This document shows, in pieces, positions 1,178-32,177 of a DNA stretch of 64,000 nt; positions within the stretch are counted from its first letter, which is position 1, and the number at the start of each line of letters is the position of its first letter. Position numbers and translations under genes: made by a program. Origin of the DNA: Mageeibacillus indolicus UPII9-5 (GTDB taxonomy: Bacteria > Bacillota > Clostridia > Saccharofermentanales > Fastidiosipilaceae); the NCBI RefSeq assembly GCF_000025225.2, contig NC_013895.2, positions 1,054,001 to 1,118,000 on the forward strand, read 5' to 3'. The notes below the pieces were generated by a model that saw only the letters and a program-made list of their open reading frames with translations, did no database searches and was not told the origin of the DNA.

Positions 1178-1184
1178 ATATAAA

Positions 1185-1283
1185 CTCATCTTCCAGGTAA
1201 AACTTTACCTGCCGGATTTAGCACCGTGCTTACGCCGGTTGCCGGATTTCATTGGGCCGGGTCCCTCCATCACTCTTGATAAG
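1185..1283 (-). promoter_or_regulatory. SAM-I (S-box) riboswitch aptamer
   Basis: Read on the minus strand, the S-box conserved pieces appear in order: CTTATCAAGAG at the 5' end, GGTGGAGGGAC-like GATGGAGGGACCCGGCCC, ATGAAATCCGGCAACC, GGTGCTAAATCC, and AAGATGAG at the 3' end. P1 forms between CTTATC (1278-1283) and GATGAG (1185-1190) with one G-U pair. Known behaviour: SAM binding stabilises the aptamer and lets the downstream terminator form, reducing metK transcription. Confidence 0.97.
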
Positions 1284-1298
1284 GATTAAATTCGGTTA

Positions 1299-22048: not shown

Positions 22049-23434
22049 ATGCGCTTAGGTTTTTTTCGCCAAAGTTTAGCTGAACGCCGAGAAATGATTC
22101 TGTATGGCAACACGCTGAAAACTATCATGTATTTGTCATTACCGACTTTGATGATGGCCGTAGTGCAATCATTAATACCTCTTACAGACGGATTATATTT
22201 GAACAACACATCTTCCGTCGCAGTTGCGGGCGCAGTCGGATTTGCCGTACCGATCATTAACATACTAACATCTTTATCTCAAGGCCTTTCCGTCGCCGCC
22301 CTGGCAATTCTCGGACAGATCTTTGGGCAAGGAGACATCCCGAAAGTTCGCCATTGTGCCTCTCAAACCATGTTCTATTCCTTCCTTTTCGGCTGTTGTA
22401 TCGCCCCGTTCACCCTCTTAGCCGCCTTCATTCTGCGCTCACAGGTTAATCACGAAATTGCCGCTCCTTTATTCAATTACTTGAGTGTTTACTCCCTCGT
22501 GTTACCCTTTCTTTTTACTGCGTCAATTTATAACGCAATCAAAAGTGCCACCGGCCAGCCAGAAGCCAACTTCATTCGTATGCTCTTTTTGTTCATTCTG
22601 AAATTGATCTTTAACGGAATTTTTCTCTCCTGGCTCCATTTAAACGAATTCGGAGCTGTTTTGGCTTCGCTCGGTTCTTATCTCACCATCAATGCTTGGA
22701 TGTTGTACGACTTGTATATAGCCGATTCCGAAACCAGACTGACGTTCAAAAATATCAAACCCGACAAGGTTTTTCTGACATCTTTGGTAAAACTTGCTAT
22801 TCCCTCTATGCTCAGCAATATGATGGTGTACTTCGGTTTCACTTTAATCAATATGGAAGTATCATCTTTTGGCAAAGTTGCCCTGAATGCTCAGGTAATA
22901 GCCTCCAATGTCAGCGCGATGGCATTCACCGTGCCTTCGTCAATTGGCTCAACCATAACCGCGCTTGTAAGTATGAACATCGGCATCAACCGCACACGGC
23001 AGGCAAAAAAATCTTACTTTATTGGCTGTCTGGTCAGTATCGTTATTTCAGCGATTCTAATCGCCATTTTTTTACCTTTGTCACCATATTTGGTACTCAT
23101 GTTTCGTAATGATCCCGATATCGTGGATATATCTGCCGGTGCTTTACGCATATACCTCTGGTCAATAATAGGTTTCGGAATCTACATGGTAACCAACGGA
23201 GCTTTCATCGGTTTGGGACGCACAAAAATGACTTTGATCAGTGGAGTTTTGCGGATATGGTTCTGCCGTTATCTGTTTATTCTAGCCTTCGAAAAAACTT
23301 TGGGTGTTTATTCAATATTTTGGGGAAACCTGTTTTCTAACACTATATGCGGCATAATTTTCAGCGCAATTCTAATCCTATGTCTGCCTTGGAAATCGGT
23401 AATTCAGGACAAGCTGTCGCAGATCGGCCGCTGA
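22049..23434 (+). CDS. MATE-family multidrug/Na+ antiporter
   Basis: 461 residues in about 12 membrane segments arranged as two six-helix halves. The first half has YLSLPTLMMAVVQSLIPLTDGLY and GLSVAALAILGQIFGQGD, the second KLAIPSMLSNMMVYFGFTLINM and GSTITALVSMNIGINRTRQAK, the paired pattern of MATE proteins. Ribosome site CAGGGGG before ATG 22049. It stands alone, 279 bases after ispD, facing pyrE. Substrate cannot be told from sequence. Confidence 0.9.
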   Translation: MRLGFFRQSLAERREMILYGNTLKTIMYLSLPTLMMAVVQSLIPLTDGLYLNNTSSVAVAGAVGFAVPIINILTSLSQGLSVAALAILGQIFGQGDIPKVRHCASQTMFYSFLFGCCIAPFTLLAAFILRSQVNHEIAAPLFNYLSVYSLVLPFLFTASIYNAIKSATGQPEANFIRMLFLFILKLIFNGIFLSWLHLNEFGAVLASLGSYLTINAWMLYDLYIADSETRLTFKNIKPDKVFLTSLVKLAIPSMLSNMMVYFGFTLINMEVSSFGKVALNAQVIASNVSAMAFTVPSSIGSTITALVSMNIGINRTRQAKKSYFIGCLVSIVISAILIAIFLPLSPYLVLMFRNDPDIVDISAGALRIYLWSIIGFGIYMVTNGAFIGLGRTKMTLISGVLRIWFCRYLFILAFEKTLGVYSIFWGNLFSNTICGIIFSAILILCLPWKSVIQDKLSQIGR

Positions 23435-23543
23435 CAGGCGAGAACTGCCCAATCGCCTGCGTCAAGCCGCCGGCCACTCACAGACAACCATCGCTAGATC
23501 GCCGCCCGAGCCGCCGGCCGTCAGCTCCGTCACGTCAATATCG

Positions 23544-24176
23544 TCAATCCATTTTCTGCCAACTTGGATCGGACGGATTCTCCCTAAAAGCCAGTAACTT
23601 TCGCTGTTGTTTGGCATCTATGTAACCCGACTCTAACGCAACACTTAAAAGCTCCGTCAAATCCGTCAAAGTAAACAACTTAACGTCAGCAACTGTCATC
23701 GCTTCTTCCGCTCTTTTCATACCATAAGTAAAAATTGCCACCATTCCCTGCACATCAGCGCCAACAGACCGCAAAGTGTCAACTACCTGTAATGACGAAC
23801 CGCCGGTAGAGACTAAATCTTCAACTACTACGGTTTTTATTCCGGTCGGGACAACCCCTTCAACCGCATTTTCCTTGCCGTGATCTTTAGCTTTGGCGCG
23901 AACAAAACCCATGGGCAAACCAAGTTGCCAACCACAAATGGCAGCGTGAGGAATACCGGCCGTAGCCGTTCCCATCAGACATCCCGCATCCGAAAATTCC
24001 CTTCTTATCAGGTCACACAAGGCATTTTCAACTTTTTCCCTTTCCTCGGGGTAGGATAAAATCAAACGATTATCACAATAAATAGGCGATTTTATACCTG
24101 AGGCCCAAGTGAACGGGGCATCAGGGGACAAAGTTACCGCCTTAATTTTCAAAAGGATTTCAGCTATCTCACGCAT
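23544..24176 (-). CDS. pyrE: Orotate phosphoribosyltransferase
   Basis: Joins orotate and PRPP to orotidine 5'-phosphate. 210 residues; YCDNRLILSYP for orotate, the mobile loop RAKAKDHGKENAVEG and the PRPP motif VVVEDLVSTGGSSLQV are intact. Last gene of pyrCKDFE, 122 bases after pyrF; that gap holds no evident terminator. Convergent with the MATE gene. Confidence 0.97.
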   Translation of the reverse strand: MREIAEILLKIKAVTLSPDAPFTWASGIKSPIYCDNRLILSYPEEREKVENALCDLIRREFSDAGCLMGTATAGIPHAAICGWQLGLPMGFVRAKAKDHGKENAVEGVVPTGIKTVVVEDLVSTGGSSLQVVDTLRSVGADVQGMVAIFTYGMKRAEEAMTVADVKLFTLTDLTELLSVALESGYIDAKQQRKLLAFRENPSDPSWQKMD

Positions 24177-24298
24177 ATTAATTATCTTCCTTTCAAACAG
24201 CTTATAAATCTATAAAATTACAAGCTTATAAACTTATATATCACTAAACTCTAGGCTTCCGACGTCGAATATTTTGCTCGGCAGCAGACTCATTCACC

Positions 24299-24988
24299 TT
24301 ACTGATGAAATTCCGCTGCGATTTGCCGATAAGCTGCCAAAGGATCCGCGGCCGCCGTTATCGGCCGACCTACCACAATGTAATCAGAGCCTATTTCCGC
24401 CGCCTGCTTCGGAGTAACCACCCGCTTTTGATCACCAGCAGTCGCAGTGGCCGGCCTTATCCCCGGAGTTACAGTCAAGAAATCTCGCCCTAAGACTTTA
24501 TGAATGCGATCAACTTCCCAAGCCGAACAAACAACACCGTCCAGTCCAGCTGTTCGAGCAAGTTCCGCGTAATGAAGCACTGTAGCCTGCATCTCATGAT
24601 CAATCCACAACTCTTGCCGCAATTCGTTTTCACTGATTGAAGTAAGTTGAGTTACAGCGATAATTTTTGCTGTGGAGCCACTATCTCGTAATGTTTCCAC
24701 CGCTCGGCGCATCATCGTAACACCACCGGCAGCATGAACGTTAATAATGTCCGCACCTAATTTCGCACAAGAACGCACAGCTCCAGCCACCGTATTCGGT
24801 ATGTCATGAAATTTCAAATCAAGAAATACTTTGTGACCTGCTTGCTTAATTTTTCGTACGATGTCCGGACCCTCAGCGTAAAAAAGTTCCATCCCTACTT
24901 TGACAAAAATTGATTCGTCAAACTGCCGTAAAAATTCCATTGCCCTTACCTGATCAGGGAAATCCAACGCCGTAATAACCTTTTTCAT
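24299..24988 (-). CDS. pyrF: Orotidine 5'-phosphate decarboxylase
   Basis: Makes UMP from OMP. 229 residues of the short bacterial type. TALDFPDQVRAMEF at the N-terminus, the catalytic Asp-Lys-Asp array in VFLDLKFHDIPNTV, and the phosphate loop VTPGIRPATATAGDQKRVVTP (in part) with DYIVVGRPITAAADP. Start ATG 24988 directly follows GGAGGAAAC. Between pyrD and pyrE. Confidence 0.97.
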   Translation of the reverse strand: MKKVITALDFPDQVRAMEFLRQFDESIFVKVGMELFYAEGPDIVRKIKQAGHKVFLDLKFHDIPNTVAGAVRSCAKLGADIINVHAAGGVTMMRRAVETLRDSGSTAKIIAVTQLTSISENELRQELWIDHEMQATVLHYAELARTAGLDGVVCSAWEVDRIHKVLGRDFLTVTPGIRPATATAGDQKRVVTPKQAAEIGSDYIVVGRPITAAADPLAAYRQIAAEFHQ

Positions 24989-25050
24989 GTTTCCTCCTTA
25001 GTGAAAACCGCCGTTTTTTTATTTAATTTAACATTTAACAACAATATATT

Positions 25051-26821
<1,771 letters not shown>

Positions 26822-26863
26822 TTTCTCCCTCCTAAACAACAGTTTCGAACGACCACCGACCAA

Positions 26864-28189
26864 TCAGCTTAATTTTCCATTACTGAGAATCTGCTTGCCG
26901 TCACACCAAAGATCAGTAACTTTTCCATACACCTCACGACCGTCAAATGGCGTGTTCTTCCCTTTTGACAATTGATCGGCAGCCCTTATCGTCCATTTGG
27001 CATTTAAATCTACCAGAACCAGATCCGCCGTAGCACCACTTGCCAAAGTGTAATCGCCATAGCCGAAACGCTTGGCCGGACCCGCGGTAAAACACTTCAA
27101 TACAGTGGCCAGCTTTAGCCGCCCCGACCTGACCAATTCAGTGTAGACAAGCGGGAAAGCAGTTTCTAGGCCGGTAATACCGAAAGCCGCCGTCGCCAAA
27201 CCACCGTTTTTTTCTTGCAAAGCATGGGGGGCATGATCGGTAGCAATGATTTCCACCAGACCGGAGTCAATTGCCTCAACCATCGCAGTGACATCAGCTG
27301 CCGAACGAAGTGGTGGATTCATTTTAAAATTTCCGTCCTCGCGCAAGTCATCATCACTCAGCAACAAGTGGTGTGGGGTAATTTCCGCGCTCACATCCGC
27401 CTGCCACTTCGTCTTGGCTAAGTTAAGCAAGTCAGCACATTTGGCCGTACTCATGTGACAAAGATGATAACGGCACCCGGTTTCAGCAGCTAAAATCAGA
27501 TCACGTGCCGTCATAACCTCCTCAACACTGTCGCTAATACCGCAATGGCCGTGCTTACGTGCATAATCGCCGTCATTGATATATCCCTTATTCAATAAAC
27601 TGTTTTCTTCACAATGTTGCGCCAAAAGCCCGCCCACGGCAACCAATCTACGCATAGCCTCACGACACAAAGCCGGATTTTGCATTCCTTTGCCGTCATC
27701 AGAGAAAGCCACTGCTCCCGCTTTCATTTGAGCAGCGAAATCGACCAAATTCAGACCCTTTTCGTCATCAGTGACGGGGCTGTAAAAGTCAACCTTGATT
27801 TTTGCTTGCTCTTTGGCTCGACGGCGCATGGTTTGAATCAGCTCCGGCGAATTAGGAACAGGATTTACATTAGGCATGGCCAAAACACGCGTATAACCTC
27901 CCGCCGCAGCCGCTGCCGTCCCGGTGATCAAATCCTCTTTATAGGTGAAACCGGGATCACGCAAATGAACATGGGGATCGATAAATCCCAGGCTCAACAG
28001 CTTGCCGTTAGCTTGGACAATATGCAAATCAGAATAAGTTTCCGATAACTCCTTCCGCTTGGCCTTAGCCTCAGCAGTCGACAAACCTTCATAAAATGCT
28101 GCGATCTTATCATCAACGATCAAAACTTGCGCCGAAGTCAGTTCATTTTCCTTTGTACAAACAACCGCGTTTTCCAACCAAGTTATCAT
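26864..28189 (-). CDS. pyrC: Dihydroorotase
   Basis: Closes carbamoyl aspartate to dihydroorotate. 441 residues, the type I form. Metal ligands in FIDPHVHLRDPG, the VLAMPNVNPVPNS segment, HCEENSLLNKG, LCHMSTAKCADLL and IIATDHAPH are visible. ATG 28189 has AAGGGG seven bases ahead. First structural gene of pyrCKDFE; carbamoyl-phosphate synthase and pyrB are not in the window. Confidence 0.97.
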   Translation of the reverse strand: MITWLENAVVCTKENELTSAQVLIVDDKIAAFYEGLSTAEAKAKRKELSETYSDLHIVQANGKLLSLGFIDPHVHLRDPGFTYKEDLITGTAAAAAGGYTRVLAMPNVNPVPNSPELIQTMRRRAKEQAKIKVDFYSPVTDDEKGLNLVDFAAQMKAGAVAFSDDGKGMQNPALCREAMRRLVAVGGLLAQHCEENSLLNKGYINDGDYARKHGHCGISDSVEEVMTARDLILAAETGCRYHLCHMSTAKCADLLNLAKTKWQADVSAEITPHHLLLSDDDLREDGNFKMNPPLRSAADVTAMVEAIDSGLVEIIATDHAPHALQEKNGGLATAAFGITGLETAFPLVYTELVRSGRLKLATVLKCFTAGPAKRFGYGDYTLASGATADLVLVDLNAKWTIRAADQLSKGKNTPFDGREVYGKVTDLWCDGKQILSNGKLS

Positions 28190-28325
28190 TCTCTGCCCCT
28201 TTCGCTAAAAAAAAGTACGGTCGCCGCAGCAATCGTACTATATGCAAAACATTTTTCAGACGTCGAAACAACGACCACGCCGTCGCTCTGTAATGTGCTG
28301 TTGATATCCAAAAATATGTGGACAT
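28143..28325 (-). CDS. Candidate pyr leader peptide read through the attenuator
   Basis: A 60-codon frame starting at ATG 28325 with GGAGG five bases ahead, the first start codon after the pyr promoter. It begins MSTYFWIS, passes through the terminator hairpin as RRPYFFLAK, and stops at 28143, inside pyrC in another frame. The E. coli pyrBI leader peptide is likewise read through its terminator. No known protein family. Its value would be the act of translation. Longer frames to 28367 and 28377 start before the transcription start and are not counted. Confidence 0.55.
   Translation of the reverse strand: MSTYFWISTAHYRATAWSLFRRLKNVLHIVRLLRRPYFFLAKGAENDNLVGKRGCLYKGK
28207..28239 (-). terminator. 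pyr operon attenuator
   Basis: On the minus strand AGTACG (28234-28239) pairs with CGTACT (28214-28219), with an inner TTGC/GCGA stem and a TGCG loop, then eight U in a row (28207-28214 complement). It lies 18 bases before the pyrC start and inside the leader reading frame, so a ribosome close behind RNA polymerase would prevent it from folding. No PyrR-binding loop is recognised. Confidence 0.8.
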
Positions 28326-28348
28326 TTTCACCTCCGACATCTTGAAAG

Positions 28349-28377
28349 ATGATAACGGATAAATCATAAAGAGTCAA
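28349..28377 (-). promoter_or_regulatory. pyrCKDFE promoter
   Basis: TTGACT (28372-28377), a 17-bp spacer and TATCAT (28349-28354) on the minus strand. Start would be near 28342, leaving a 17-base untranslated stretch with GGAGG before the leader ATG. The 0A-like boxes of the divergent pilin gene begin 24 bp upstream of this -35. Confidence 0.75.
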
Positions 28378-28401
28378 GTGTCCTTTTTATTTGTATTCTA
28401 T

Positions 28402-28466
28402 TTGTCGCTTGTTGTCGCTTTTTGAGGAAAATTGACGATCACGCTTAAGGCAAAAACTCTTAGACT
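28402..28466 (+). promoter_or_regulatory. Four-unit 0A-box-like array and -10 of the pilin operon
   Basis: TTGTCG (28402), TTGTCG (28412), TTGAGG (28422), TTGACG (28432): four units at exact 10-bp steps. TAGACT (28461-28466) follows the last unit after 23 bp and has no fitting -35. The last 28 bases of the array align without gaps to those before tadZ (4345-4372) and the prepilin peptidase (35399-35426), with 18 bases the same in all three. Confidence 0.7.
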
Positions 28467-28503
28467 AAAGCTATTAAAAAAATCATTTCACAGGAGGTAA
28501 TCT

Positions 28504-28932
28504 ATGCCGGATAAAAATTTATCACCAATATCCTCACCCCAAGCCAAACCACTGCCTAGCCTTCCGAATCGACTTACGAATGAGAATGCCAAAGCCAAAC
28601 AAGGACTATCGAACACAGTCACGACCACAGCCAAAAGCAGCCACATCAAAGCAGAATATTCGCGCAATGCCGGGAAAAATCTGCCGCTGAGATTGCGAAT
28701 AACTCTCCCCCCTTACCTAAAGAAAAAACTATTCTTATGCCGAGAAGGGATTACATGCATGGCCGAAAACAAAGACGGCGCGGCGACACTTGAAGTGGTA
28801 ATTATTATTGCCGTACTTATGGCGATAGCTCTAATTTTCAACACCCAACTGCGCCAATTCGCGCAAAACCTGTTTCACAAAGTATTTGACGATCAAAGCA
28901 TTCTGAGTCAAATCGGCAATATCGGAGGGTAA
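28504..28932 (+). CDS. Flp-type (type IVb) prepilin with long N-terminal extension
   Basis: Major-pilin candidate of the Tad system. The prepilin motif is near residue 92: KDG, cleavage, AATLE with Glu at +5, then a 17-residue hydrophobic stretch (VVIIIAVLMAIALIF). The mature part is only 50 residues, normal for Flp. The 90 residues before it are unusual: polar and Lys-rich, with no signal. AGGAGG is placed well for ATG 28504; an internal ATG at 28759 (AAGGG nine bases ahead) would give a plain 57-residue Flp prepilin. Both may be made. Ends two bases before the FHA gene. Confidence 0.78.
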   Translation: MPDKNLSPISSPQAKPLPSLPNRLTNENAKAKQGLSNTVTTTAKSSHIKAEYSRNAGKNLPLRLRITLPPYLKKKLFLCREGITCMAENKDGAATLEVVIIIAVLMAIALIFNTQLRQFAQNLFHKVFDDQSILSQIGNIGG

Positions 28933-28933
28933 A

Positions 28934-30421
28934 ATGGCTGAACTGAAGCCAACCAGACTAATCAATTTTAATTATGTTTTGACGGCAGGAGAAAGCTTCA
29001 GCGACTTTCAAAATGAAGCTCTTAGTTCCATGAACTGGCACGGACTTCTCCTGCCTACCTGCCAAATAGAACCCGAACACATGAGTTTAGTCTGCCGAAT
29101 AAGTAATAAAATAAGCTTAAGCGAGCTTGGTAGAACTGAAAAACTTGACATCGGGTTTATGGTCACCCTGATAAATCATTGCGGTGAGTTATGGGCAGCC
29201 GTGGATAACAGTCAATTGGTGGCCGACAACATACTGTTTGATCCGGACTCAATATTTTTCCCGCCGGATAAACTTGATGCTTGCGAAGCCGGCTTTATCT
29301 ACTTGCCGGTATGGCAAGAACAAAACGATAATAGCCACGCCTGCGCTTTAGCCACAGGCGGTCGGCTAGGTTTGGTTGAATTGTTCTTGCAGCAAAACCA
29401 GCAGCTGAACGAGAATCAAAAAATTGAACTAATCAACGCCGCAGCTGAAAGTATGGCCGGCTTAGTCGAGTGTGTAAATAAATTGTCCTATACTGCCACC
29501 GCTCCATCGGACTTGGCTACACCTCAACCTTATTTCAACGATGTCGCCAAGACTTATACAGCCGCTCCGTCAAACCAAGCTGCGTCCCCACCTCTAAACG
29601 GAAATACTATTATACCTGCCTATATAAAAGCAGGGCAAGCTTCAACTAAAGGTAGGTTTGACGCTTTCAGCGACCACAATTATGCAGAAAATACCGGCAC
29701 AAATATTCGGAACAGAAACAGCAATCGCTACTTGGCTTTACTTATTCAAGCAGTTTATTTAGTGGTATGCCTCACCTTGCCGTTTTGGTTACCTGATTCT
29801 CACCGCAAACCCTCATTTATCGCGATAAGCATTGAATGGTTAGTGCTACTATGCCTAGATTTAAAACTGTTTGTATTCAGCCGCCGTGGACTTTTTAAAA
29901 GAAAGCCTATAAATCGAAAAACTTCGACCTCGTTCAATACCGACCGAGCAGCTAATGCACCCGAGATCCGCCAGCCTCCGCCGACCGCCAACTTTTTGCA
30001 GTTCTCTGCCATGCCTTCGGATAAAGAAGAAACAGTTAAAGCCGTGGATAATTCGTTGCTCTTCTCAGAGACCATAATCGATAAACAAGCTGCCGTACCG
30101 AACAACCCTGCTTTCATCTCACGCTCCATACCTGGGAGTTCAAATGAACGCCGTAGCGACAGAATATACATTCTAAGGAATAACTTTGTTTTGGGCACAG
30201 ACCCGATAAAAGCCGACTGCCTCCTGCCTAACCACGGCCATCGCCCCCGTTCCGTGGCGCGTATAAAGAATAATGCCGGAACATACTATATAGAACCACT
30301 AGTTCGTGACAGTGTATCCCTGAATGGGAAAAAACTAAAACCCTATACCGACTGTCCCTTGCCGAATACCGCAACCATAAGACTTAACAACACAGCTTAC
30401 TATTTTTGCTGTAACAGCTAG
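28934..30421 (+). CDS. DUF6382-like, FHA-domain membrane protein of the pilin operon
   Basis: 495 residues. The first 180 look like the DUF6382 domain that goes with Tad genes in Clostridia (LINHCGELWAAVDNSQLVADN region). Two hydrophobic segments lie near residues 273-315, then a disordered linker, and residues 410-495 form a forkhead-associated phosphothreonine-binding domain: FVLGTDPIKADCLLPNHG, RSVARIKNNAGTYYIEPL, SVSLNGKKL. Such proteins may link the pilus machine to Ser/Thr kinase signals; role is inferred. GGAGG within the pilin stop region serves its ATG. Confidence 0.75.
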   Translation: MAELKPTRLINFNYVLTAGESFSDFQNEALSSMNWHGLLLPTCQIEPEHMSLVCRISNKISLSELGRTEKLDIGFMVTLINHCGELWAAVDNSQLVADNILFDPDSIFFPPDKLDACEAGFIYLPVWQEQNDNSHACALATGGRLGLVELFLQQNQQLNENQKIELINAAAESMAGLVECVNKLSYTATAPSDLATPQPYFNDVAKTYTAAPSNQAASPPLNGNTIIPAYIKAGQASTKGRFDAFSDHNYAENTGTNIRNRNSNRYLALLIQAVYLVVCLTLPFWLPDSHRKPSFIAISIEWLVLLCLDLKLFVFSRRGLFKRKPINRKTSTSFNTDRAANAPEIRQPPPTANFLQFSAMPSDKEETVKAVDNSLLFSETIIDKQAAVPNNPAFISRSIPGSSNERRSDRIYILRNNFVLGTDPIKADCLLPNHGHRPRSVARIKNNAGTYYIEPLVRDSVSLNGKKLKPYTDCPLPNTATIRLNNTAYYFCCNS

Positions 30422-30506
30422 CGCAGATAACTGCCATGCTAACTAGCACGAACGAAAAATTCGACGATTTTTCCTTGCCAGCAGAATTGAAGAGGCCCAC
30501 ACAAGT

Positions 30507-30534
30507 AAAAAGGGACACCTACAAGATGTCCCTT
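30507..30534 (-). terminator. upp terminator
   Basis: AAGGGACA (30527-30534 complement) with TGTCCCTT (30510-30517 complement), 9-base loop, five U after it on the minus strand. Lies 40 bases after the upp stop. Confidence 0.85.
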
Positions 30535-30573
30535 GAATACGCATGTAAAAAATTTGAAATAATTTAATCTTAT

Positions 30574-31203
30574 CTATTTTGTTCCGAACAAACGATCGCC
30601 GGCATCACCTAAGCCCGGTATAATATAAGCATGATCGTTAAGCCCTTTATCAAGTGCCGCACAGAATATGGGTATATCCGGATGTTCTTTATGCAAACGC
30701 TCTACACCTTCCGGAGCAGCAATCAAGCATACAAAACGGATGTTGGTGATCCCACGTTGCTTAAGAAAACTGAGCGCAGCTGAAGCCGAGCCACCCGTCG
30801 CCAGCATTGGATCCAAAAGAATGACATCACGCTCAGTAATGTCTTCCGGCATTTTGAAGTAATATTCTACCGGCTGCAAAGTTGCCGGATCTCGATACAA
30901 ACCAATGTGCCCTACCTTTGCGCTCGGCACTAACTGAAGCATACCCTCTACCATGCCTAAACCGGCACGTAAAATCGGCACCAAAGCCATTTTTTTACCG
31001 GCAAGAACCTTGGTAGTAGCCATCCCAATCGGTGTTTCCACCTTAACTTCTTTCAACGGCAAGTCACGGGTGACCTCGTAGGCCATTAGCATTGCCACTT
31101 CCGAAACCAACTCTCTGAATTCTTTGGTTGAAGTATTCTTATCACGCATAAGTGATATCTTATGTTGAATCAGCGGATGATCAAAAACAAAAACCTTATT
31201 CAT
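30574..31203 (-). CDS. upp: Uracil phosphoribosyltransferase
   Basis: Salvage of uracil to UMP with PRPP. 209 residues. Starts [21 protein letters not shown], has [14 protein letters not shown], the PRPP motif [18 protein letters not shown], and ends near [17 protein letters not shown], all family marks. Single gene with its own terminator; a -10 of the TARACT type (31238-31243) is 35 bases upstream. Confidence 0.98.
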
Positions 31204-31237
31204 AGTAACTCCTTATTCCGAACACAAAGTTTTTTCA

Positions 31238-31267
31238 AGTTTAGCACATTGAAGCAGGGATATGCAA
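31238..31267 (-). promoter_or_regulatory. Probable upp promoter
   Basis: Minus strand TTGCAT (31262-31267), 18-bp spacer, TAAACT (31238-31243) with extended TGC. The block GTGCTAAACTT is a one-base variant of that before metK and thiS. Confidence 0.5.
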
Positions 31268-31356
31268 ACTCAATTCATGTCCCGACAAATCCAACTCACA
31301 TTTATGTAAAGCATTTGTAATATTTCTCTAATATTTATTCAATCAAATCAATTTTT

Positions 31357-31428
31357 TGCGGATAAGTAGGATAACTATGTGAATAACCGTCTGAACAAAG
31401 CAAAATCAGCCATGCTTTTTGTGGATAA
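31357..31428. promoter_or_regulatory. Three phased DnaA-box-like sites
   Basis: TGCGGATAA (31357-31365), TGTGAATAA (31378-31386) and TGTGGATAA (31420-31428), all the same way round; the last is the exact complement of TTATCCACA, the others differ by one base. Start-to-start distances are 21 and 42 bp. They lie in the 233-bp gap between upp and the nucleotidyltransferase gene, next to AT-rich DNA. No dnaA or dnaN is near, so not an obvious chromosome origin. Confidence 0.5.
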
Positions 31429-31436
31429 CCGGTTGA

Positions 31437-32177
31437 TTACTGCCAGGTGTCCTTGATCGCGGCATAGCTTTCTACCGTGCCTATATCGATACATTTTCCC
31501 TCAATTCGATACAAGTAAATCGGTTTACGCTTATAAAGCCAAGCCGGAAATCTTCCCGGAGAATCCATGTTGTTTCCTTCCGATTCATATTGCAGCAGCA
31601 AAGGTAACGTTTCCGCTTTATAGAAGTAAGTTGCATAAACGACAATATTACTTTTAGGATTAGCCGGCTTTTCTTCAAGGGAAGTAATAATTCCTCCGGC
31701 GTCAACTTCCGCAATAGCAAATCTGCTCAACTCGTCACAGTTTTCCAAGCTTTGACCGACTACCATGTCCTTTTTCAGGCGCTTAAACGTCAAATACGCC
31801 TGCCGCAAAGAAAACTCGAACAAATTGTCACTTGCTAACACGAGAACGTCTTCCTCATAACCGAGTTGGTTTAAAGCCAATTTTAAATCACCCAACGCAC
31901 CCAAGCGAATAGATTCTTCTCCAGTACCGTCGTCCAAAACCTTTATTTGCCACGGCAAAAATTCATTCTTTAGCTTGCGAAAATAGGCATCAAAAACTGC
32001 GGCGAATTTGTGGTTGGTAACCAAAGTTACCGACGACACGTCACTTATCTCCGCTACTTTTTGTAAAAGCAAATCTAAAATTGTCTTTTCACCGACAGGC
32101 AGGAGAGCCTTAGGTAAATTTTTAGTCAACGGATAAAGGCGTGTGGCATATCCAGCCGCCAAGATGATAACCTTCAT
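31437..32177 (-). CDS. Sugar-phosphate / phosphocholine nucleotidyltransferase family protein
   Basis: 246 residues of the NTP_transferase fold. The N-terminal signature IILAAGYATRLYPLTKNLPKALLPVG matches glucose-1-phosphate thymidylyl/uridylyl and LicC-type cytidylyltransferases over its first 26 residues; VLASDNLFEFS is the metal-binding Asp region, and SLEEKPANPKSNIVVY the sugar-site segment. Substrate cannot be set: no partner sugar or teichoic-acid gene is nearby. Its ATG overlaps the stop of the methyltransferase upstream by one base, so they are co-translated. Confidence 0.8.
   Translation of the reverse strand: MKVIILAAGYATRLYPLTKNLPKALLPVGEKTILDLLLQKVAEISDVSSVTLVTNHKFAAVFDAYFRKLKNEFLPWQIKVLDDGTGEESIRLGALGDLKLALNQLGYEEDVLVLASDNLFEFSLRQAYLTFKRLKKDMVVGQSLENCDELSRFAIAEVDAGGIITSLEEKPANPKSNIVVYATYFYKAETLPLLLQYESEGNNMDSPGRFPAWLYKRKPIYLYRIEGKCIDIGTVESYAAIKDTWQ

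Follow-up and report, generated by a model that had tools for sequence, protein, structure and literature searches.

Background

Attenuators described in front of pyrimidine genes include that of pyrBI in Escherichia coli and Salmonella, with its leader peptide PyrL (PF08052; Roland, Liu and Turnbough, 1988, cited in PMC5021804), and the Bacillus-type attenuators governed by PyrR, whose binding loop is RF00515. In the trp and his amino-acid leaders, and in those of hisS in bacilli, a short translated frame likewise sets the formation of a terminator; when the hisS case was described in bacilli, leader peptides were unknown beyond Proteobacteria and Actinobacteria except for ermC (PMC2965389). 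No description of a translated pyr leader in Firmicutes was found in the literature searched, which took in few subscription papers. Here, the leader of the pyrC gene (positions 28377-28143, minus strand) is analysed within a window of 64,000 nucleotides (nt) from the clostridial bacterium Mageeibacillus indolicus UPII9-5 (contig NC_013895.2, positions 1,054,001 to 1,118,000). This leader probably attenuates transcription by way of the ribosome, in the functional manner of E. coli pyrBI, responds to uridine triphosphate (UTP) and stands in for PyrR; translation of its frame, coupling and the UTP signal are the parts of this reading that we infer.

The resemblance to E. coli pyrBI, which the first-pass annotation of the locus had proposed and which the present analysis supports, lies in a promoter, a Shine-Dalgarno (SD) sequence, a frame of 43-60 codons passing through an intrinsic terminator, and a pyrimidine gene right behind. 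The geometry is also close to that of E. coli K-12, with a 5' untranslated region (5'UTR) of 18 nt in both (on the transcript start estimated for the window), an ATG-to-stem distance of 89 nt in E. coli and 86 nt in the window, and T8 in both. The E. coli frame, however, ends 3 nt before pyrB, whereas the window frame ends 46 nt inside pyrC; moreover, the window leader would control pyrCKDFE rather than pyrBI, belongs to a clostridial host, encodes a non-homologous peptide, and lacks both the AATTT initial tract for slippage and the pyrimidine-rich pause tract. With Bacillus-type attenuation the locus shares the pathway and an intrinsic terminator that lies 40-100 nt ahead of the first pyr gene, but it has a leader frame and neither a PyrR gene nor a binding loop. 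The trp, his and hisS leaders depend on ribosome stalling at end-product codons and on alternative hairpins, whereas the window frame passes a single stem.

The pyrC leader and its terminator

The elements named in the first-pass annotation, namely the TTGACT-17-TATCAT promoter, GGAGG, ATG 28325 and a frame of 60 codons passing through a terminator to a stop in pyrC, were all confirmed in the sequence (Table 1). The promoter is the joint best match in a scan of positions 23000-31500, although promoter-like matches there are no more frequent than in shuffles. Its spacing would place the transcript start at about 28343. On the minus strand between 28420 and 28140, it is followed by AAGATGTCGGAGGTGAAAATG, which opens into the leader frame; the latter is translated as MSTYFWISTAHYRATAWSLFRRLKNVLHIVRLLRRPYFFLAKGAENDNLVGKRGCLYKGK and stops at 28145-28143. 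The pyrC frame contains a TAG at 28207-28205, 18 nt 5' of the pyrC ATG at 28189. The leader frame therefore does not extend pyrC, the two being separate products, and the same in-frame TAG rules out a fusion of the two by transcript slippage, which was also considered.

The terminator stem, AGTACG.TTGC(TGCG)GCGA.CGTACT, folds with an energy of about -12 kcal/mol, a z of -1.8 relative to shuffles, and, in RNA folding of the complete leader, pairs with a probability of 0.86-1.0. It directly precedes the first pyr gene, between the sole plausible promoter and pyrC. The terminator can be assigned to the pyr leader because sense-strand terminators of -10 kcal/mol or below are rare inside genes here, with 3 in 374 coding kb of the genome, no minus-strand gene lies directly upstream, and no T run follows the hairpin on the plus strand; as the upstream neighbour (28504-28932, plus strand) is divergent, the hairpin does not serve another gene as its 3' terminator. 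Judged by its position, it must act on the pyr transcript. RNA folding also predicts a second hairpin, upstream of the attenuator, whose 3' flank can pair with the transcript's 5' end; this hairpin might conceivably serve as a pause or SD-masking structure.

Table 1. Coordinates of the pyrC leader elements, the operon genes and a riboswitch elsewhere in the window.
Feature	Position	Strand	Basis and remarks
Sigma-70-type promoter TTGACT-17-TATCAT	28349..28377	-	Consensus scan 10/12; -35 at 28377-28372, -10 at 28354-28349
Shine-Dalgarno GGAGG (GGAGGTGA)	28331..28335	-	Core 5 nt 5' of ATG 28325; read from sequence
Leader frame, 60 codons	28143..28325	-	Through terminator; 46 nt overlap with pyrC, in a different frame
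Hairpin upstream of attenuator	28266..28288	-	RNA folding prediction
Intrinsic terminator (attenuator)	28207..28239	-	Stem 28239-28214 plus T8 28214-28207
pyrC, dihydroorotase	26864..28189	-	TIGR00857 355.8 bits, cut-off 279; first gene of the operon
pyrK, dihydroorotate dehydrogenase electron transfer subunit	25991..26863	-	NF000799 E 3e-70, below equivalog cut-off; true start may be internal
pyrD, dihydroorotate dehydrogenase	25051..26121	-	NF005574 425.7 bits, above cut-off; true start likely downstream of the listed open reading frame start
pyrF, orotidine-5'-phosphate decarboxylase	24299..24988	-	NF001273, above cut-off
pyrE, orotate phosphoribosyltransferase	23544..24176	-	TIGR00336, above cut-off
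SAM riboswitch	1183..1285	-	78.5 bits

Absence of PyrR

The genome of the window (G000) is a single contig of 1,809,746 bases with a completeness of 99.99%, and a genome search for PyrR gave best scores of only 19.5-23.7 bits against a cut-off of 138, one of the matches being upp. RF00515 found no match in the window leader even at E<=10, and the leader matches no known RNA family. As a positive control, RF00515 in E-value mode matched 8/8 leaders from PyrR-bearing genomes (E 4e-5 to 0.011), and in the same mode it matched 0/8 PyrR-less leaders of the family designated f5 (see below). The Rfam gathering threshold was rejected as evidence against PyrR loops since it is too strict for Clostridia and missed leaders of PyrR-bearing genomes; E-value mode was used instead. 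The earlier observation that no PyrR loop is visible is thus upheld, while the accompanying generalization that Firmicutes normally use PyrR fits the order (PyrR present in 93 of 113 genomes) and applies less well to the class (137 of 233). The best reading of these results is that the leader attenuator takes the place of PyrR, which G000 lacks.

Leader frames in relatives

Pyr leaders with a terminator at most 135 nt from the first gene were scored for frames that have a start codon and SD core 60-215 nt before the stem, comprise at least 20 codons, and extend at least to a point 12 nt short of the stem, with expectations derived locus by locus from dinucleotide shuffles of the upstream 230 nt. 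Such SD-led frames were found in 13 of 17 PyrR-less leaders, where 1.3 would be expected; a stricter SD left 7 (0.18 expected), and accepting only ATG left 9 (0.5 expected). Of the PyrR-bearing controls, 1 of 21 had such a frame, with 1.2 expected; the corresponding Fisher P of 5e-6 is too small, since related loci are not independent. The PyrR-less count is conservative because the same-family genome G008 was scored as a miss, the fast finder being blind to its large-loop first terminator. Without the loci that prompted the survey (the window, G008 and G151), 11 of 14 PyrR-less leaders carry the frame. Compared across relatives, then, the frame and hairpin singled out in the first-pass annotation do recur among PyrR-less leaders far above chance and not among PyrR-bearing ones, while the sequence of the peptide is not conserved.

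In G008, which is PyrR-less, a promoter-like sequence, the SD GGGAGG and an ATG lead into a 108-codon frame that traverses two terminators and stops 16 nt 5' of pyrB, the head of a pyrBICFKDE operon; the ATG-to-stem distance is 105 nt, the 5'UTR would measure 21 nt, and a frame of that length has P 0.0015 in shuffles (0.15%). The frame of G151 is shorter (29 codons) and ends 5 nt before the attenuator stem. The family of G151, f5, was sampled after this frame had been seen; its sub-clade with the PyrB type of G151 is almost entirely PyrR-less, and the PyrR-less clade has a terminator before pyrB together with SD-led frames of 24-46 codons whose ends fall between -11 and +65 nt of the stem. Locus L218 (genome G373), which belongs to f5 and has PyrR, contains an RF00515 site and no leader frame, whereas its PyrR-less sisters have a frame and no site. 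On the sequence evidence, PyrR-site leaders and frame leaders replace each other in f5, constituting a natural regulator swap. Among other PyrR-less relatives, the pyrC leaders of G018, G024 and G029 have no obvious attenuator, and in 30 pyrC leader loci of PyrR-less genomes terminators were found in 4 and an ATG/SD frame through a terminator in none.

The leader peptides have no sequence in common, and those of relatives differ completely. A motif shared by the G000, G008 and E. coli peptides (S-L-[FI]-R-R-L) was discarded as a sign of homology, as it does not rise above shuffles (P 0.26-0.50). PF08052 left the peptides of the window, G008 and L222 unmatched, with E. coli PyrL scoring 114.6 bits as a control, and the window peptide has no Pfam match. 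The kinship with pyrBI is apparently one of layout: the leader would work like pyrBI and is, to judge from these comparisons, not a member of the PyrL family, with an origin independent of PyrL as the simplest account. The f5 leader peptides (L216-L238) look rich in Phe (9.9%) and Arg (9.4%) relative to assumed backgrounds of about 4.4%; the Phe content, unlike that of Arg, follows from U-rich tracts.

Coupling and the proposed UTP signal

For attenuation of the pyrBI type, the ribosome must follow RNA polymerase closely. E. coli terminators are repressed by the coupled ribosome when the distance from a stop codon to the start of the stem is below about 18-27 nt, and the boundary of this repression is especially steep for pyrBI (PMC4824070); by their positions, the leader frames of the window and its relatives all bring the ribosome to or over the stem. 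In Bacillus subtilis, transcription is reported to run ahead of translation, and terminators to follow stop codons by few nt (PMC7858274). Stop-to-stem spacing was therefore taken as a proxy for coupling, measured with one pipeline on small samples of 10 to 26 terminators each. The median was lowest in the B. subtilis prophage SPbeta, at 2.5 nt (83% of spacings under 12 nt), and rose from 18 nt in an E. coli sample through 24 nt in G008 to 40 nt in G000 (26 terminators, 12% under 12 nt). E. coli and SPbeta, the known cases, are told apart by this proxy, and for G000 it does not suggest transcription of the runaway type.

UTP is proposed as the signal by virtue of the pathway and by analogy with E. 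coli. Pyrimidine-rich tracts before the stem are longer in PyrR-less than in PyrR-bearing leaders (P 0.001), examples being TTTCCCCTTTTTCTTTC in L222, CCCTTTTTCCC in L221 and CCCCCTTTTTCC in G008, alongside CCGTTTTTCTTCCC in E. coli; only 3 single leaders have a tract that exceeds their own shuffles. Such tracts would fit UTP-sensitive pausing. The window leader contains U5 and U4 runs before the attenuator.

Interpretation and alternatives

In the proposed mechanism, polymerase would start at about 28343 and a ribosome would load at GGAGG/ATG 28325 almost immediately. If UTP were short, polymerase would move slowly over the leader and the first ribosome would catch up; with no stop codon before the hairpin, the ribosome would cover the stem and block its folding, permitting transcription of pyrC-K-D-F-E. 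With plentiful UTP, polymerase would outrun the ribosome, the hairpin and T8 would form, and transcription would end before pyrC.

Several observations weigh against this reading. A second open frame (28377-28186), with no start codon near an SD, is also present. The window open frame by itself is weak evidence: the probability that dinucleotide shuffles contain no stop is 0.10 over the 40 codons that reach through the T run and 0.03 over all 59 codons. Its codon usage is not coding-like and gives the frame no support, which may be expected of a regulatory peptide. The window leader has no significant pyrimidine tract (10/14, P 0.76), and the separate pyrBI genes of G000 (L076 5067-5169) have neither an attenuator nor such a leader. 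As for the comparative evidence, conservation was assessed across family and class, with no same-genus genome among the relatives, and several f5 genomes are 72-88% complete, so that the absence of PyrR is less certain in each of these individually. Furthermore, a leader terminator before pyrB is absent from most of the 46 surveyed Clostridia that have PyrI and lack PyrR, and the leader attenuator is therefore not a general substitute for PyrR.

Among the alternatives, the one that survives best is a genuine attenuator set by something other than a ribosome, whether an RNA-binding protein not yet known, an antiterminator or a riboswitch of an undescribed type, in which the frame would be incidental. 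We regard this as unlikely, yet it is consistent with a window frame barely longer than chance and a leader that folds slightly better than shuffles (z -2.2), and it draws on three PyrR-less loci, L094, L125 and L105, which have an apparent unknown structured leader before pyrB. Its weakness is that the window leader contains no known RNA family and no long structure excluding the terminator, which pairs with a probability of 0.86-1.0 once complete, and that the excess of SD-led frames in PyrR-less over PyrR-bearing leaders would go unexplained. The leader of L094, L125 and L105 (genomes G190, G340 and G258) is a conserved, structured-looking element about 150 nt before pyrB that ends ...GTATGCCGCT...AGCGGCT(T)GTTTTTTGCC, has no Rfam match at gathering score and is perhaps an undescribed regulatory RNA. 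A short conserved frame, MPVRKYAAIFIKRLVFCP, lies within this element in L094 and L125 and was left out of the count.

A less likely possibility still is that the attenuator depends on the ribosome and that its signal is ribosome speed (the supply of arginine or another amino acid, or translation capacity) rather than UTP; a ribosome slowed in the Arg-rich part would lag and the terminator would form. The peptides are indeed Arg-rich (7/60 in the window and 9.4% in f5, against an assumed background of 4.5%), and both G000 and G008 lack CarB, the large subunit of carbamoyl-phosphate synthase, with carbamate kinase located beside ornithine carbamoyltransferase in G000, which makes arginine or citrulline a possible source of carbamoyl phosphate. 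E. coli PyrL, however, also has 9% Arg and is nevertheless UTP-responsive; the window frame has no single-codon run and the leader no alternative antiterminator of the kind found in amino-acid attenuators, and G151 has both CarB and a leader frame.

That the leader frame is a functional small protein or a PyrC extension, with a fortuitous hairpin, is very improbable: its 60 codons and good SD are offset by the lack of a Pfam match, the TAG before the pyrC ATG, the codon usage, the dissimilarity of peptides between relatives while the layout is kept, and the rarity of strong in-gene terminators. PyrR attenuation of the Bacillus type, although more common in the order than any other arrangement, is effectively refuted by the missing gene and the unmatched RF00515 (with its positive control working), unless the assembly misses pyrR.

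The pyr operon and carbamoyl phosphate

The operon has the order pyrC-K-D-F-E with pyrC at its head (Table 1). The separate pyrBI operon of G000 (L076 5067-5169) is preceded by a promoter, TTGACT-17-GATAAT. G000 and G008 possess de novo pyrimidine genes despite the absence of CarB, which is also missing from G001 and is present in the tested PyrR-bearing members of the family. The carbamate kinase and ornithine carbamoyltransferase genes that adjoin one another in G000 (L077 3996-6012) suggest that arginine or citrulline may be the source of carbamoyl phosphate in this organism.

Implications

Beyond M. indolicus, the evidence leans somewhat towards the view that several PyrR-less lineages of Clostridia have an attenuator of the pyrBI type, coupled to the ribosome and of an origin independent of the enterobacterial one, perhaps repeatedly so, in which the peptide would be free to vary and only the frame, the position of its start and the location of its stop relative to the stem would be kept. 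Such attenuators would give many PyrR-less Clostridia a regulator of the pyrimidine pathway, the same solution having been reached with unrelated peptides. If this wider view is true, it implies kinetic coupling of transcription with translation at these Gram-positive leaders; with a class of such attenuators in Gram-positive bacteria, uncoupling would prove not to be general in the phylum, and a simple natural reporter of coupling would be available.
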